Positions 5,671 through 37,283 of a stretch of 64,000 bases of DNA are shown here, piece by piece (the first letter of the stretch is position 1; each line of letters starts with the position of its first letter). The notes below the pieces were generated by a model. That model ran no database searches, was not told the origin of the DNA, and worked only from the letters and a program-made list of their open reading frames with translations. Position numbers and translations under genes: made by a program. This DNA is from Chlorobiota bacterium (GTDB taxonomy: Bacteria; Bacteroidota; Ignavibacteria; OLB7). The stretch is taken from NCBI GenBank assembly GCA_028287785.1, contig JAQBOZ010000002.1, positions 1 through 64,000 of the forward strand, in the 5' to 3' direction.

Positions 5671-7142
5671 TCTTCATCGAAAGCCCCCCCTCGGCATTCA
5701 ATCAGACCGAGCGCCTCCGGAACCGATCGATCGCGTTCGCGCTCCTCTCCATACTTGCCGTCTGCTTCTTCATCAAGTTCCGCCGGTTCGGCATCGATGA
5801 CAGCTTTATCGTCCTCCGCTACGTGGACAACATCATCCACGGCAGGGGATGGACGTTCAATCCTGGAGAGGACTACAACGCCAGCACCTCGGTTCTCAAT
5901 ACGGTGGTGATCACCGTCATCGCGCTGGTGGCCGGTGATCCGCTGCGGGCGTCGACCATCGCGGGATGCCTCGCCATTCTCTGTTCCGGCATCTGCCTCT
6001 ATCTGCTGCTGGAGGAACGTTGTTCCGCCATCGTGGCGACCGTGGCGGCGGGAGCGCTCATGTACTTCCTCTCGGAGAATGGCACATGGGGGCTGGAGAC
6101 GAACATGTTTATCGGGCTGATTCTTCTGTTCGTGCTGATCGAGGAATGGAAGGGGGACAGCTGGTGGATACTGGGGCTGATCATGCTGGCGCGGCCGGAG
6201 GGGCTGGTGCTGGCGCTGTTCAAGATAGCGCGGGAGATCCTCCGCGACCGGAAGGCGCCGGTACGGGGGATGATAAAGCTCGCCGCCGTCTGCGCTCCGT
6301 GGGCTCTCTTCTCGTTTATCCGATTCGGTCAGCTTGCGCCGGCGACGTTACGGCAAAAGCTGTGGCAGGGACGTTCGGGGTTCTGGGGAACGGGGCATAT
6401 TTATGTAAACATGCTTATCCGCGCCGCCCGTGTCGATTTCCTGGAACATGGCAGGTGGGGGCTGCTCCTTATGATCCCTCTGGGCGTGGGCGCCGCGCGG
6501 GTTGTCAGGGAGCGATCCAGCCTGCTCTACTTCGTGGGCTTCGCCATCGTCCAGCAGATCGCCTATATCGTGATGAATATCCCGGGGTACAACTGGTACT
6601 TCGCTCCCGCCGAGGCAATCGGCTGCATTCTGGTCCTTATCGGCCTGATTCACCTGGGCTCCCTGATCCACCTGCGACTCCCTGCAACGCTCCGTCCGGC
6701 ATTGCCGTTCGTGGGGCCGGCCACCGCCGTCATCGGCGTTGTCGCGGCGGTGATCCTCTATCAACCCTATCTCGACAGCCCCATCGCGGACCCGCGGACC
6801 ACGGCCTATACAAGGCTGGCGTTCGATATCACCGGACGGATAAGCAATCCAAGCATCGCGGCCAGGGAGGTGGGGGTCGTGGGATATTACAGTCACGCGC
6901 GGATGGTGGATCTTACGGGGCTCACCAACCGGGAGCCGGAGTTTCTGACGAAGGATCATATGGATCGATTCTTCTCGATCGCCCCGGACGTTGTCATCGT
7001 TACCGATACCATCGACGCGATGGAGAAGAACGTCACCACGGACCCGAGGTTTGCCGCGAACTACAGGCTGGCGAACACGATCGTCACGCCGCGATACCGG
7101 ACGATGCATTACTACATCCGCTTTGTGGATTCAACGCCCTGA
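5646..7142 (+). CDS. GT-C-type integral membrane glycosyltransferase-like protein
   Basis: 498 aa with about ten hydrophobic helices. The first helix (about residues 28-45) is followed by FGIDDSFIVLRYVDNI, the acidic pair placed as in GT-C enzymes, then HGRGWTFNPGEDYNASTSVL, a loop common in arabinosyl/mannosyl transferase-like families. A soluble C-terminal segment of about 110 residues follows the last helix. The reading frame opens at GTG 5646, overlapping the SRPBCC gene by 25 bp; a TTG at 5667 overlapping that gene's TGA is an alternative start. It converges on the oligopeptidase gene, with palindrome P29 copy 2 between them. The acceptor and donor are unknown. Confidence 0.75.
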   Translation: MGRRTAVLIFIESPPSAFNQTERLRNRSIAFALLSILAVCFFIKFRRFGIDDSFIVLRYVDNIIHGRGWTFNPGEDYNASTSVLNTVVITVIALVAGDPLRASTIAGCLAILCSGICLYLLLEERCSAIVATVAAGALMYFLSENGTWGLETNMFIGLILLFVLIEEWKGDSWWILGLIMLARPEGLVLALFKIAREILRDRKAPVRGMIKLAAVCAPWALFSFIRFGQLAPATLRQKLWQGRSGFWGTGHIYVNMLIRAARVDFLEHGRWGLLLMIPLGVGAARVVRERSSLLYFVGFAIVQQIAYIVMNIPGYNWYFAPAEAIGCILVLIGLIHLGSLIHLRLPATLRPALPFVGPATAVIGVVAAVILYQPYLDSPIADPRTTAYTRLAFDITGRISNPSIAAREVGVVGYYSHARMVDLTGLTNREPEFLTKDHMDRFFSIAPDVVIVTDTIDAMEKNVTTDPRFAANYRLANTIVTPRYRTMHYYIRFVDSTP

Positions 7143-7159
7143 GAGCGAACGATGTTGTT

Positions 7160-7188
7160 GTCGGGGGATGTTTTAAACATCGCCCGAC
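7160..7188. terminator. P29 palindrome copy 2, likely bidirectional terminator
   Basis: Near-perfect palindrome: arms GTCGGGGGATGTTT and AAACATCGCCCGAC with one mismatch. It lies 18 bp past the stop of the rightward membrane protein gene and contains the TAA stop (complement of 7173-7175) of the leftward oligopeptidase at its centre. The position between convergent genes fits a bidirectional terminator or 3'-end stabiliser. Confidence 0.65.
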
Positions 7189-9242
7189 GGCGGCATCATG
7201 TTGTCGTAGGCGAACGCGAGGACATCGACATGCTCCTCGATCACCATCGCCGTCGGCTTGCCGCCGCCGTGCCCCGCCTTGGTATCGATCCGGATCAGCA
7301 CCGGGGCCGGTCCCCCCTGGCACTCCTGAAGCCGCGCCGCGAACTTGAAGGAGTGCGCCGGCACAACGCGATCGTCGTGGTCGGCCGTGGTGATCAGCGT
7401 GGCCGGATAGCGAACGCCGGGTCGGAGGTTGTGAAGCGGAGAATAGGCGAAGAGGCTCTCGAAGCCCGCCTGATCATCGCTGATCCCGTAATCCGCCCGC
7501 CACGCCATCCCGATCGTGAACCTGTGATAGCGGAGCATGTCCATCACCCCGACCGCCGGAAGCGCCACGGCGAAGAGATCGGGACGCTGGCACATCACCG
7601 CTCCCACCAGCAGCCCGCCGTTCGATCCCCCCTGCAACGCCAGCTTCCCCGGCGATGTATACCCGTTCCGGATCAGGTACTCCGCGGCCGAGATAAAATC
7701 ATCGAACACATTCTGCTTCCGCTCCAGCGTCCCGGCCCGATGCCACTCCTCGCCGAACTCCCCGCCGCCGCGCAGATTCGGTATCGCGTAGATCCCCCCC
7801 TGTTCCAGCCAGAGAAGCGCCGCCGATGAGAAGAACGGGGTCAGTGAGTTGTTGAACCCGCCGTAGCCGTAGAGAAGCGTGGGGTTGGAGCCGTCCAGCG
7901 CTATTCCCTTCCCATGCGTCAGGAAGATCGGCACCTGCGTCCCATCCTTGCTCGTGTACCATACCTGCCGGGTTTCGTAGGCATCGCGGTCGAACTTCAT
8001 ATCCGGGGTCCGGATCAGGGAATTCTCGCCGGTGATCATGTCGTACCGGAAGACGGAGGTGGGATAGAGGAACGAGGTGAACATGTAGAAGATCTCGGTA
8101 TCCCTCCGCTTCGTCTCCGACCCGATCACCGTGCCGTACGCGGGAAGAGGGATATCGCCGGTATGCACGCCGTGCATATCGAACATCCTGATTTTTCCGG
8201 CGGCATTGTGGAGATAGACCACCACGAACCGACCGCCGGCCAGCGAGACCGACTGGATCACGTCGTCACGCTCCGGGATGATCACCCGCCAGTTCTCCGG
8301 CTCCGGCGCGTTCAGGTCGATCGCGATCAGCCTGCCGTGCGGCGCGTCCCGGTCGGTCTGGACGTACAGGGTATCCCTGTCCTGGCCGATCACCTGATAA
8401 TACGCATCGAACTGACCGATCACCGTCCGCCTGGGGGATGTCAGCGATGGCCCCATCGGGTCCAGAAGGTCGACGTGATAGAGGAGATTGTTGACCCCCG
8501 ACTCGCCGACGTAGATATAGAGATGGCGGCCGTCCTCGGAGATATCGGCATAGATGCGCCAGCTTGGATGCTCGGGAAATTCGCACACCACCACATCCTC
8601 CGCCTGCGGCGTGCCAAGCCGGTGATAGTAGAGGCGGTGGTCCAGGTTTGCCCCGCTGTACGCGATCGATGCCTCCGGCTCGGGAAAGCGCGCGTAGAAG
8701 AACCCGGCGTTATCGTGCGTCCAGACGAGCGACGAGAATTTCACCCAGCGGATATCATCCTCCAGATCCTCCCCCGTCGCCAGCCGCCGCACCCGGAACT
8801 CCTGCCAGTCCGATCCGCTCCGGGAGATGCCGTAGCCCAGCAGGCTGCCGTCGTTGGTAAAGCTGATGGTGGAGAGGGAAACGGTGCCGTCCGGCGAAAG
8901 AGTGTTGGGGTCGAAGACCATGCGGGGCTCCGACGTGAGGGTGGCCTGCGCGTAGAGGACCCCCTGGTTCTGAAGGCCATCGTTCCTGAAGAAGAAATAC
9001 TCGTCGCCATGCCGGGTGGGGGCGCTGTAGCGGGTGTAGTTCCACAACTCCGTCAGCCGCGCCAGAAACGGCGCGCGATGCGGCAGCGCATGGAGATACT
9101 CGAACGTCAGATCGTTCTGTGCCCTGACCCATTCGGCTGTTTCCGGCGAGCGATCATCCTCCAGCCAGCGATAGGGATCGGCGATTTCGACGCCGTGATA
9201 GAGATCGATCTGATCGATCTTGAGCGTATTGGGGTATTGCAT
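7173..9242 (-). CDS. Prolyl oligopeptidase (S9A family serine peptidase)
   Basis: 689 aa, the normal length of S9A prolyl oligopeptidases, which cut short peptides after proline. Residues about 1-65 and 415-689 make the alpha/beta hydrolase domain; about 70-410 form the seven-bladed propeller that excludes large substrates. The catalytic serine is in LQGGSNGGLLVGA (about Ser540), the aspartate in ADHDDRVVP (about 621-624) and the histidine in KAGHGGGKP (about His658). No signal peptide is visible, so it is probably cytoplasmic. The TAA stop is encoded by the centre of a palindromic repeat. The M16 peptidase gene lies upstream on the same strand, 123 bp away. Confidence 0.95.
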   Translation of the reverse strand: MQYPNTLKIDQIDLYHGVEIADPYRWLEDDRSPETAEWVRAQNDLTFEYLHALPHRAPFLARLTELWNYTRYSAPTRHGDEYFFFRNDGLQNQGVLYAQATLTSEPRMVFDPNTLSPDGTVSLSTISFTNDGSLLGYGISRSGSDWQEFRVRRLATGEDLEDDIRWVKFSSLVWTHDNAGFFYARFPEPEASIAYSGANLDHRLYYHRLGTPQAEDVVVCEFPEHPSWRIYADISEDGRHLYIYVGESGVNNLLYHVDLLDPMGPSLTSPRRTVIGQFDAYYQVIGQDRDTLYVQTDRDAPHGRLIAIDLNAPEPENWRVIIPERDDVIQSVSLAGGRFVVVYLHNAAGKIRMFDMHGVHTGDIPLPAYGTVIGSETKRRDTEIFYMFTSFLYPTSVFRYDMITGENSLIRTPDMKFDRDAYETRQVWYTSKDGTQVPIFLTHGKGIALDGSNPTLLYGYGGFNNSLTPFFSSAALLWLEQGGIYAIPNLRGGGEFGEEWHRAGTLERKQNVFDDFISAAEYLIRNGYTSPGKLALQGGSNGGLLVGAVMCQRPDLFAVALPAVGVMDMLRYHRFTIGMAWRADYGISDDQAGFESLFAYSPLHNLRPGVRYPATLITTADHDDRVVPAHSFKFAARLQECQGGPAPVLIRIDTKAGHGGGKPTAMVIEEHVDVLAFAYDNMMPPSGDV

Positions 9243-33044: not shown

Positions 33045-33051
33045 CCGGATT

Positions 33052-33074
33052 GGCGCGGGACCGATGCCCGCGCC
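33052..33074. terminator. Bidirectional terminator hairpin
   Basis: Arms GGCGCGGG and CCCGCGCC (8 bp, perfect) around a 7-base loop, 8 bp after the stop at 33044 and 14 bp after the stop of the leftward gene fragment at 33088. Confidence 0.6.
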
Positions 33075-33087
33075 GTGATCGGTGCCT

Positions 33088-33205
33088 CTACTCGTCCGCC
33101 CGCGCCGACCGGAGGGTGAACGTCCCGTTATCGATATTGAGCGTGTCGCCGCGCGCGTTGATCAGCCCTCCCACCATCGTCCCGGTCAGCTCATCGCCGC
33201 CCGGC
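33088..33205 (-). pseudogene. 3' fragment of a leftward lipoprotein-type gene
   Basis: Reading leftward, the frame encodes GGDELTGTMVGGLINARGDT and then LNIDNGTFTLRSARADE and TAG. This is the closing beta-strand pattern of small Bacteroidetes lipoproteins of the DUF6252 kind, in which a target is 'TGT...GDTxxITNGTF'. Upstream codons (Pro/Ala/Thr-rich, up to 33285) lie inside the sigma-factor gene on the opposite strand, so the 5' part of this gene is missing. The break is near 33205-33210. A terminator hairpin follows the stop. The family assignment is tentative; the truncation is the main point. Confidence 0.5.
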
Positions 33206-33207
33206 AG

Positions 33208-33622
33208 CGTTGTTGGTGGGGGAGCGGGATCAGGCGGAGGATCTGACGCAGGAGTTGTGGGAACGGGTGCTGCGGCTCCGCGCACACCGTCAGAAGATCC
33301 TCACCCTGTCGGCTTCTTCCTGAAGATCGCCCGCAATCTCTCCATCAATCATCTGAAATCCCGTCGCCATCACACCCCGCTGGCACTGCTGCCGGAGTCC
33401 GCCCATCCGGTGGCACAGGGGGAAAGGGCATCGGAGCTGGAGGAGCGGATTCTCACCTCGCTGGAACATCTCTCGTTCGAACATCGGGAGGTGCTGATCC
33501 TGAACATCTACTGCGGCTACAGGATGGAGGAGATCGCGGTGATGCTGGGAAAGTCGCCGGAGGCCATATGGAAACGGGCTTCCCGCGCGCGAACGGAGTT
33601 GCGGCGGATGGTGACACGATAA
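33208..33622 (+). pseudogene. ECF sigma factor, 5'-truncated and frameshifted
   Basis: In one frame from 33210 the codons give LLVGERDQAEDLTQELWERV then LRLRAHRQKILTLS, the signature of sigma region 2. A stop follows at 33321. The downstream frame, one base off, gives GFFLKIARNLSINHLKSRR (end of region 2) from 33311, then region 4 with LEHLSFEHREVLILNIYCGY and MLGKSPEAIWKRASRARTEL, ending at 33622. The switch needs one base restored near 33308-33312. The N-terminal ~40 residues usually present before this point are missing; sequence upstream of 33208 belongs to another gene on the opposite strand. So the gene is both truncated and frameshifted. The anti-sigma remnant follows 3 bp later. Confidence 0.7.
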
Positions 33623-34355: not shown

Positions 34356-35333
34356 TCATCTCCGCTTCGTCAGCCCCAGCCGGCGCGCGCGTTCAGCCAC
34401 CGCCACCGGTGTCCGCGAGATCTTTTCGGCGATCTCCGCGCGCGTCATCCCGCTGTAGAGACGGCGCAGTTCCTGATCGTCGTCGGCGGTCCAGGGTCGC
34501 TTGGTGGGAGGGGGAGTGTAGGATCGGGTAAGCCCCAGCTCGCTTGCGCGCGCGGCGATCGCGGTCCACGTCCGGTCCAGCCGCGAGGCCACCTCCTTGC
34601 GGGTCATCGTGCCATAGATCCGCCGCAGATGCAGATCATCCTCCGCTGTCCAGGCCCGGGATGTCGGCCTGTCGCGGTATCCGTTCTGCGTGGCGATCTT
34701 CGTGACGGTGTAGACGGTTGTTCCGAGAGTGGAGGCGATGCGGGTGTAGGGGATGGCTCCGAGGTTACTTACGATATACTTTACATCGTCGGGGGTGAGT
34801 CGTGAATTCGGTTTGCTCAATCCCAGGCGGCCGGCCTTGATCTCCACCGCGTTTTCAGTCCTGTCAAGCTCCTTCGCAATCTCCGCCTTGCTCTTCTTTC
34901 CGTAGTGCGTCCTGAGGAACTTGATCTCCCGGCTGGTCCATCGCTCCGGATCGTAGCTTCCAAGCTTCAGCCGGTGGATCTGCCCTCGCACGCTCTGCTC
35001 GGTGCGTTGCAACGTCCGGGCGATCTGCGATGCCGAGTGTTTTCCGTAGGCTTTCCGCAGATAGCGCAGTTCCATCTCCGTCCAGGGCTGGAGCCCGTTT
35101 CCGGGGATCCCCAGCTTCAGCACGCGCGATTGAACGCTGGTGATGGTCCGCTTGAGCAGCGCGGCGGTATACCGCGAACCATGCTTTGTGTAGTTGAGCC
35201 GGAGAACCCGGTCCTCATCCTTCGTCCATGCCTTCCCGGAACGGCTGGCCGTGACGGATTGTGGTGGTTCCGGCTGCGACCATCTCCCTCCAGGGGCATC
35301 GGTCGTGATGAATCGTTTAATGTCCTTCTTCAT
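34356..35333 (-). CDS. Six-repeat Myb/SANT-like DNA-binding protein
   Basis: 325 aa. After a ~35-residue basic leader come six tandem repeats of 42-50 residues. Their openings are WTKDEDRVLRLNYTKHGSRY (about 36), WTEMELRYLRKAYGKHSASQ (about 84), WTSREIKFLRTHYGKKSKAE (about 132), LTPDDVKYIVSNLGAIPYTR (about 178), WTAEDDLHLRRIYGTMTRKE (about 229) and WTADDDQELRRLYSGMTRAE (about 283). Each then has an IAxxLxRT turn and a third helix ending RxxxLGL. The Trp start, the acidic first helix and the third helix are the Myb/SANT trihelical pattern; repeat 4 lacks the Trp. The protein is basic and has no signal peptide, so it is probably cytoplasmic and DNA-binding. Its targets are unknown. It ends 6 bp from the anti-sigma remnant. 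Confidence 0.8.
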   Translation of the reverse strand: MKKDIKRFITTDAPGGRWSQPEPPQSVTASRSGKAWTKDEDRVLRLNYTKHGSRYTAALLKRTITSVQSRVLKLGIPGNGLQPWTEMELRYLRKAYGKHSASQIARTLQRTEQSVRGQIHRLKLGSYDPERWTSREIKFLRTHYGKKSKAEIAKELDRTENAVEIKAGRLGLSKPNSRLTPDDVKYIVSNLGAIPYTRIASTLGTTVYTVTKIATQNGYRDRPTSRAWTAEDDLHLRRIYGTMTRKEVASRLDRTWTAIAARASELGLTRSYTPPPTKRPWTADDDQELRRLYSGMTRAEIAEKISRTPVAVAERARRLGLTKRR

Positions 35334-35441: not shown

Positions 35442-37283
35442 CTAGGTTGCGCGCTCCTCTTCAGCGCCGATCCAGCCGGCGAATTTCGATTCGACCTCCT
35501 CGAAGCTATCCCCCGCACCGGTCGATGCTATCACCTCATCACCATTGATCACGGTGATCGTCGCGTCCAGATCGATCGGCCCGCTCCGCCGTGGAATATC
35601 CCGTTCCGCGGCAACCGAGCGCTCCGCCTCATCGAACATGTCCTCCAGCGATCTGTTGACAAGCTCCACCGTGGCGCGCGCCGAGAACGGCTCCCCGGTC
35701 AGATCGTTCACCATCTCCAGGAATGTTCTGGAGTTCCCCGGCGCCCAGTACTTCGCGGCCAGATCGCGACCGATATTCGGGTTGTCCATGATGTGCCCAT
35801 CGCGCTTCAGGAAGTAATCGCGCGTCTGGAACACCGCCATCTGCGCCAGCGTGTAGCCATGATAGTAGGCCGATGATTCCCCCGAAAGAAGATGAGGGAT
35901 GCTGAGGATCGGGCGGCCGCTCCCCTCCTGGAAGAGCATGTCGCGCTCCACACGGCGCAGCACGTTCAGAATGTTTTCGGGGGTAAGCTGATCGTCCGGC
36001 ATCTCGTAGATCGCCTTTTCCGCGTAGGAGACGCCGAGCATTTTCCTGAGCCCGTACGCGCGGTAGCGGCTGTTCTTCTCAAGGAGCTTCCGGATCAGGT
36101 CGAGCGGCATCGGCTCCCCGGCCTCGTTCCGCGCATAGCGGGTCAGCCAGTCGGGATCGCTCATCAGGCTGTCCAGGAACATGGACTGCGTTTCGGCGAA
36201 GGCGACGGAGGTGGGCGCGAACTCCTGCGCGAAGCAGGGGGCCGGCATCCTGATATTGCTGAAGTGGGCCGCGTGGCCTCCCTCATGCAGAAGCGTTGTG
36301 ATGGCCCTGTTGCCGCTTCCGATCTTCCCCGGAACCGCGTTCGCCGTGAAGTTGATCCGCGCCGGATGATAGACTCCCCCCTCCACGTAGCCCGGCACCG
36401 GCCCATGCATGAAGCCGTTCTCGTACTTGCCGGGACGGTCCACCAGATCGAGCGTGAGCGTGGCGTTGTTGTAGCGGATGCCCATCGCCGCGAACGATTC
36501 TCCCCAGCGTGCCAGGGCCGACTCGAACCTGTGATACGGATCGATCTGCGCCGTGAGATCCCCGGCCGTGCAGTAATCGAAGTTCCAGGGCTCCGCCGCG
36601 GAATCCCCCTTCTCCCGTTTCAGGCTCTCCACCGAATCGCGGCAGGCATCGCCGGTGTTCGCCGCCAGATCATCCAGCAGCTCGAAGAGCTTCCCCTTGT
36701 TGAAGCCCTCGTTGATCGTCACCTTGTAATCGTAGTAGTCCTCGTAGCCCAGCGACCGCGCCAGGTTGTTCCGTTCCCTGACGATGTCGATAAACCCGTG
36801 ATCCAGCACATACCGCTCGATGGCGCGCAGCCCTTCCCACGCCGCCTTCCGCATCCTCTCATCCTGCGATGTCGTGATCTGCAACGCCAGCGCGTTGGAG
36901 CTTGCCCGGACCAGCTCTCCGCTCTCCGGATCGATATACCCGAGCGCCATGTCCCGGCGCACCCGCTCAAGCTCCCCCTCCATCTCGATGATCCTTCCCT
37001 GAAGCCTTTTTCCCTCCTCGCTCTCAATCGCGTTCACCTGGAAGAAGCGGAGCCACCCCTCAAGCCCCACCCGTTCCTCCGGCGTCAGATCCTCCCGATC
37101 CAGCCCGGCGCGAACGCGGGCGATATTGGCGGCGTCCGATATGTATGACTGAAGGCGAATCTCCTTCTGCTCGAAATCCCCCGGCACCAGGCCGGCCAGC
37201 CCCATCTTCGCGACCCAGAAGGCATCCTCCTTCGCGGTGTGAAGCCGGAGATACTCCTGATTGAGTTCCTGTAACAGCGACAT
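35442..37283 (-). CDS. M3-family oligoendopeptidase-like metallopeptidase
   Basis: 613 aa. The zinc site is LLHEGGHAAHF (HExxH variant HEGGH), with the downstream glutamate expected in FAETQSMFLDSLM about 25 residues later, as in M3 peptidases (thimet oligopeptidase/PepF group). The N-terminal half is helical and is expected to cap the groove that limits substrates to short peptides. No signal peptide is visible, so it is probably cytoplasmic. The C-terminal ~60 residues are charged and may be lineage-specific. It lies 108 bp upstream of the Myb-repeat gene on the same strand and is preceded by a long AT-rich gap. Confidence 0.9.
   Translation of the reverse strand: MSLLQELNQEYLRLHTAKEDAFWVAKMGLAGLVPGDFEQKEIRLQSYISDAANIARVRAGLDREDLTPEERVGLEGWLRFFQVNAIESEEGKRLQGRIIEMEGELERVRRDMALGYIDPESGELVRASSNALALQITTSQDERMRKAAWEGLRAIERYVLDHGFIDIVRERNNLARSLGYEDYYDYKVTINEGFNKGKLFELLDDLAANTGDACRDSVESLKREKGDSAAEPWNFDYCTAGDLTAQIDPYHRFESALARWGESFAAMGIRYNNATLTLDLVDRPGKYENGFMHGPVPGYVEGGVYHPARINFTANAVPGKIGSGNRAITTLLHEGGHAAHFSNIRMPAPCFAQEFAPTSVAFAETQSMFLDSLMSDPDWLTRYARNEAGEPMPLDLIRKLLEKNSRYRAYGLRKMLGVSYAEKAIYEMPDDQLTPENILNVLRRVERDMLFQEGSGRPILSIPHLLSGESSAYYHGYTLAQMAVFQTRDYFLKRDGHIMDNPNIGRDLAAKYWAPGNSRTFLEMVNDLTGEPFSARATVELVNRSLEDMFDEAERSVAAERDIPRRSGPIDLDATITVINGDEVIASTGAGDSFEEVESKFAGWIGAEEERAT

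Follow-up and report, generated by a model that had tools for sequence, protein, structure and literature searches.

A chromosomal array of six Myb/GcrA-like repeats as a candidate DNA-binding protein in Chlorobiota

What a bacterium does with a chromosomally encoded protein composed of almost nothing but small helix-turn-helix (HTH) units in tandem is the question raised by one gene in the window, the whole stretch of 64,000 nucleotides from a Chlorobiota bacterium that was analysed here. The tandem small HTH design is best known from eukaryotes, and it is of interest to learn whether the stretch of DNA that is read grows with every added repeat. The gene is an open reading frame on the minus strand at 34356-35333 (stop codon included), with an ATG start and a product of 325 amino acids, P0001; an ORF check returned exactly the limits given by an earlier, sequence-only reading, which had proposed an undescribed protein built of six Myb/SANT-like repeats.

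Six tandem trihelical units

Residues 34-324 of P0001 consist of six tandem units of about 45 residues each, with a start-to-start spacing of 46-54 residues. All six were recovered by a repeat HMM trained on repeats from other genomes only, P0001 being left out, which gave the protein a total of 289.6 bits against a maximum of 13.5 for shuffled sequences (1,256 of 2,000 shuffled copies were reported at all). On the minus strand these are repeat 1 (R1; residues 34-77, positions 35103-35234, 47.8 bits), R2 (residues 82-125, 34959-35090, 54.1 bits), R3 (residues 129-175, 34809-34949, 67.6 bits), R4 (residues 178-222, 34668-34802, 28.5 bits), R5 (residues 225-270, 34524-34661, 48.5 bits) and R6 (residues 279-324, 34362-34499, 57.3 bits). 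R1, R2, R3, R5 and R6 are similar to one another above all 500 shuffles in every pair.

When P0001 was modelled with AlphaFold2 from an alignment with five relatives, three helices were predicted in each of the six units (residues 38-51, 53-60 and 64-74 in R1; 86-95, 101-108 and 112-121 in R2; 134-143, 149-155 and 160-169 in R3; 181-189, 196-203 and 207-216 in R4; 230-239, 245-251 and 256-265 in R5; 283-292, 298-304 and 309-318 in R6), with a mean pLDDT of 74.8 and a low pTM of 0.25, so that the mutual placement of the units is not predicted. R3 modelled alone and without an alignment gave a poor structure, for which the fold search was uninformative. The six repeats of the sequence-only reading, and the trihelical fold that it wished to see checked by structure prediction, are both borne out. 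The N-terminal tail (residues 1-33, positions 35235-35333, minus strand) is predicted to be disordered, with pLDDT below 50 over residues 1-32, and no signal peptide was apparent on inspection by eye. The protein has a pI of 10.6 and a net charge of about +31, each of the six units being basic, in keeping with the stand-alone basic array that had been described.

Similarity to Myb and GcrA DNA-binding domains

A Myb/SANT-like repeat domain is expected to be a trihelical unit with spaced aromatic core residues (W at the start, Y/F and A/W later); all six units are predicted to be trihelical, and five of them keep the first Trp. In Pfam, P0001 matched the N-terminal part of GcrA (7.5e-13), Myb_DNA-bind_6 (2.3e-10), Myb (1.4e-7) and Sigma70_r4_2 (1.5e-7), and it passed the Myb cut-offs of both PF13921 (40.9 bits, cut-off 22.9) and PF00249 (31.9 bits, cut-off 24.4). 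A family profile compared with the PDB matched the crystal structure of c-Myb R1R2R3 (1h88, 6.5e-7), further Myb proteins, SNAPC4 (0.007) and the GcrA DNA-binding domain (0.06). The top Foldseek matches were likewise multi-Myb DNA binders, namely SNAPc (1.5e-3), c-Myb-DNA (0.03) and Reb1-Ter (0.04), with TM-scores kept low by the flexible linkage of the units; 2lvs also appeared, and the D5 protein of a Vibrio phage was among the matches to viral models. The Myb-like identity first assigned to the repeats thus stands as regards the fold and the c-Myb matches, with the qualification that the GcrA N-terminal domain is at least as close in Pfam. A sigma factor was considered and rejected, given that the matches are limited to a region-4-like HTH and sigma region 2 is absent.

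Like c-Myb R1R2R3, SNAPC4/SNAP190 and Reb1, P0001 has several trihelical units of DNA-binding type following one another in a single polypeptide. However, no clear orthology to the eukaryotic Mybs was found: the third helix ends in A-x-x-L-G-L instead of carrying the Myb Trp, and the activation and partner-binding domains of the eukaryotic multi-repeat proteins are absent. The archaeal Cbp1-type CRISPR-repeat-binding protein (2lvs) offers another case of tandem small HTH units, binding a defined DNA repeat, although its match to P0001 is weak (profile E 0.0095, fold E 0.29). Some SANT domains bind proteins instead of DNA, which would allow a role for P0001 in contacting, for example, histone-like or transcription proteins; we find this hardly credible, since the SANT domains that bind proteins are typically not basic, whereas every unit of P0001 is, and since the units match DNA-binding profiles.

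The N-terminal DNA-binding domain of GcrA resembles each repeat (PF07750 positions 2-55, 49.6 bits, cut-off 26.9). GcrA, the Caulobacter cell-cycle sigma70 cofactor, has one such unit plus a C-terminal sigma-interacting domain, and it brings RNA polymerase to promoters that carry m6A (PMC7403470). This activity, together with the fact that the best Pfam match of P0001 is the DNA-binding part of GcrA, raises the possibility that P0001 senses DNA methylation in the manner of GcrA, or that it controls restriction-modification and defence genes, a reading that we consider doubtful. P0001 has six units where GcrA has one and lacks the sigma-binding C-terminal domain. As a GcrA equivalog it was rejected (NF050816, 29 bits against a cut-off of 280, with the match limited to residues 84-125).

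A conserved divergent repeat and the putative base contacts

R4 departs from the other units. As the sequence-only reading had stated, its first Trp is missing (SRLTPDD), and it has a signature of its own (RLT...NLG...LG...GYRxRP, with a tail of the GYRxRP type). Its similarity to the other units of P0001 is weak in pairwise shuffle tests; scored alone with the repeat HMM, it reached 34.5 bits against at most 7.1 for shuffles. An orthologous R4 is present in all relatives of the same family, each of them closest to R4, and only one residue differs in R4 between two close orthologues. Predicted as trihelical and kept in every same-family relative, R4 is a conserved special unit and not a decaying one, and no other part of P0001 hints as clearly at a function of its own. 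Instead of being a standard reading head, it would serve as a spacer or as a surface that contacts RNA polymerase or some other protein.

In R3 the putative base contacts E164, I165, G168 and R169, the first of them acidic, are mostly kept in relatives, and in R5 the corresponding positions differ between relatives. Conservation at the putative contacts of R1-R4 is no higher than at other variable positions, and as proof of sequence reading it is not significant for R1-R4 or R6. R5 alone has unusually variable contacts (nominal P 0.001, about 0.01 after correction for six repeats and two tails, with some uncertainty in the register of the last repeat), which could reflect either changing specificity or relaxed constraint.

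Relation to phage T5 D5

P0001 matched PHROG 323, 'transcriptional regulator, D5-like', in three stretches with an E-value of 7.1e-61, a figure inflated by the repeated use of short stretches of the profile. T5 D5 itself matches this family colinearly over its full length (profile positions 3-270, E 1.2e-71). No colinear match of P0001 over most of the profile was found: its best stretch is confined to profile positions 93-191 and is reused along the protein, indicating shared repeats and not a D5 orthologue. Direct BLASTP between P0001 and T5 D5 gave a weak match (21% over 155 residues, E 0.012), and in an hhalign profile comparison D5 residues 17-175 aligned with R4-R6 (81.6%, E 1.1e-5). The two proteins are alike in being stand-alone arrays of HTH units with a common PHROG family; they differ in that P0001 is chromosomal and has six regular, mostly W-bearing repeats, compared with about four degenerate ones in D5. 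The name 'D5-like' is also used in two papers for the D5 primase-helicase, which is unrelated to the T5 regulator.

The annotation of T5 D5 describes a protein that binds DNA and is required both for replication and for late transcription. P0001 might accordingly be thought a replication or termination factor, comparable to D5 in its second role or to Reb1, acting at one or a few sites, at forks or at a plasmid-type origin and not at promoters; Reb1-Ter is among the top structural matches, and plasmid and phage relatives are frequent. We hold this to be improbable, because the structural matches reflect the common Myb fold and the gene lies at a chromosomal site between the ECF sigma and M3 peptidase genes, with no replication genes nearby. 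The HTH fold of T5 D5 has been reported from structure prediction to engage a DNA stem-loop, and the protein is reported to trigger retron-Kva2 (PMC13405049).

Distribution and selection

A sample of 294 genomes (152 genera) from the class to which the P0001 genome belongs contained matches in 33 genomes and 18 genera, including all five sampled genomes of its family. The four members of genus g15 among those listed have one copy each, and this single copy in the family and genus lines suggests a host role. In a same-genus MAG labelled Bacteroidetes SZAS-92, seven matches fall in six genes, whose repeat numbers are 5, 5, 5, 5, 6 and 9. Relatives as a whole have 4-9 repeats (4-7 scored outside the family), the variation by which the sequence-only reading had proposed to judge its interpretation. 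The order of R1-R4 is kept across the family, in which these units are orthologous, and R6 is missing from the five-repeat relatives. With dN/dS values of 0.10 (L032-L034) and 0.13 (the paralogues L014-L015), sequence comparison indicates that the relatives are under purifying selection.

These data bear on a nucleoid-associated role, in which a basic array would coat or bridge DNA with little sequence preference and compact or insulate regions of the chromosome. Such a role agrees with the pI of 10.6, the charge of about +31, the basic character of all units and the absence of a conserved neighbour gene; on the other hand, presence in 33 of 294 genomes is patchy for a general nucleoid protein, up to seven paralogues in one genome are more regulator-like than coat-like, and the putative, mostly kept R3 contact E164 is acidic. 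We regard it as unlikely, though deserving to be taken seriously.

The Chlorobiota MAG locus L034 encodes a repeat protein 90% identical to that of L032 (JADZEY010000135.1), which is labelled Armatimonadetes; with this identity, and with the matching genome placed in the family of the P0001 genome, the label is probably wrong. In one MAG, a block of a repeat protein and FG-GAP-repeat secreted proteins occurs twice (L014, 487-3413; L015, 5741-10262), and the two repeat proteins are 94% identical, in line with a recent duplication.

Genomic context

Upstream of the P0001 gene, on the same strand and separated by 108 bp, lies an M3 peptidase gene (35442-37283), and an ECF sigma-factor gene (33050-33622, plus strand) with a follower ORF of anti-sigma size (to 33922) converges on it. 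The five proteins around P0001 are the M3 peptidase, the ECF sigma factor, an LTD lipoprotein-like protein, an OmpA-like protein and a large one. These neighbours are not kept at other loci, and a chromosomal operon partner was rejected because the neighbours differ among loci, close relatives excepted; chromosomal relatives are mostly stand-alone, without conserved neighbours.

A gene of a mobile element was likewise rejected, there being no mobile genes around P0001 and phage families matching only the sigma and OmpA-like parts, as was recent horizontal gain, with a local G+C content of 61-64% like that of the surroundings and no mobile genes. PADLOC gave a single weak match (0.006), and a defence system was not retained. 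The repeats around the gene were short and chance-like, and an autoregulatory site was dismissed. No promoter was found around the gene, where one plus-strand terminator-like site was seen, and the window has no tRNA.

The neighbourhood also bears on the reading of P0001 as a sensor of methylation or controller of restriction and defence genes. Two relatives from two families (L046, 1768-8481; L049, 872-8401) lie beside an SNF2 helicase/NOV_C pair and a DNA methyltransferase recognised by eye, L049 additionally with a Vsr-like gene, and this gene set is probably a restriction or defence system; an N-6 DNA methylase also lies downstream on a Sphingobium plasmid, and relatives in mycobacteriophages are likewise found near methyltransferase or helicase/NOV_C genes. 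However, inspection by eye showed no methyltransferase among the ORFs up to about 5 kb from the P0001 gene, nor was one seen at most other loci. Islands often carry genes of this sort, and the two cases may be due to chance.

Proposed function

On balance, and with moderate confidence, we favour the view that P0001 is a six-unit DNA-binding array that recognises particular sites on the chromosome and is a transcriptional regulator in its own right. The analysis turned up neither a binding site nor a target, and no conserved partner gene. DNA binding is established for Myb, GcrA and T5 D5, and by analogy with them it is very likely for P0001. Myb repeats cover about 3-4 bp per unit, from which we infer a footprint of about 20-25 bp for an array of six. 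The short linkers would let the units follow the major groove, with the array lying along the DNA and each third helix placed in the groove, and the protein could then act at its sites as a repressor, an activator or an architectural factor; both footprint and regulatory role are inferred by analogy with other Myb proteins. Sequence reading is favoured over coating by the patchy distribution, the expansion of paralogues and the acidic, mostly kept R3 contact, although an array of six basic units would also bind to DNA of any sequence, which counts against a sequence-reading regulator.

R1-R3 might represent an older constant core, with the C-terminal repeats as the part in which specificity and number change. 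More speculatively, and with little confidence on our part, P0001 could be a modular reader in which the R1-R3 core and a Trp-less docking R4 form an anchor and the C-terminal heads vary in residues and copy number, so that paralogues address different long sites, as a natural programmable binder would.

Stand-alone arrays in plasmids, phages and other genomes

Similar stand-alone proteins occur on plasmids (67 records) and in phages (24 records). Genome contigs scanned with P0001 alone gave no match and viral contigs one short match; the contig profile search succeeded with a four-member alignment of relatives. Plasmid proteins of sphingomonads, Priestia and Pseudomonas are, like P0001, stand-alone arrays of the same repeats (4-7 scored), with 27-31% identity to it. 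Those of the sphingomonads differ in following a HerA-type (DUF87) ATPase gene, absent beside P0001; on Sphingobium and Sphingomonas plasmids (L021, 2739-5200; L025, 2613-5152) the array gene overlaps the end of the ATPase gene, and the two form a conserved pair on sphingomonad plasmids. A protein like the sphingomonad one is encoded by L023 (MT836346) and MT835519, records labelled 'Bacteriophage sp.' that may be plasmid fragments.

The array architecture is therefore already present in databases, as the D5-like PHROG and the plasmid proteins, and T5 D5 has been studied; with PHROG 323 and so many plasmid multi-repeat proteins, the supposition that single copies are the rule elsewhere in bacteria and phages is not supported. 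Of the claim that the protein was undescribed, what stands is that this array, which is chromosomal, vertically kept and longer and has a conserved odd repeat, is a new form of a poorly studied type. No literature on chromosomal arrays of this kind was found in a search that left most subscription journals outside, and among stand-alone Myb/GcrA-type arrays a described activity was found for T5 D5 only. Phages, plasmids and bacterial chromosomes all carry such arrays, and a chromosomal family with 4-9 repeats, a conserved odd repeat and seven paralogues in one genome offers a workable model for the bacterial use of tandem small HTH units; should each repeat read DNA independently of the others, the array would be a modular binder that occurs in nature.

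PHROG 323 also matched in Methanocaldococcus jannaschii, used as a control genome, suggesting that archaeal arrays may exist. At another locus (L052), two array genes with 7 and 6 repeats stand in tandem (7024-8052 and 8097-9035) behind a prolyl-tRNA-synthetase-like gene.
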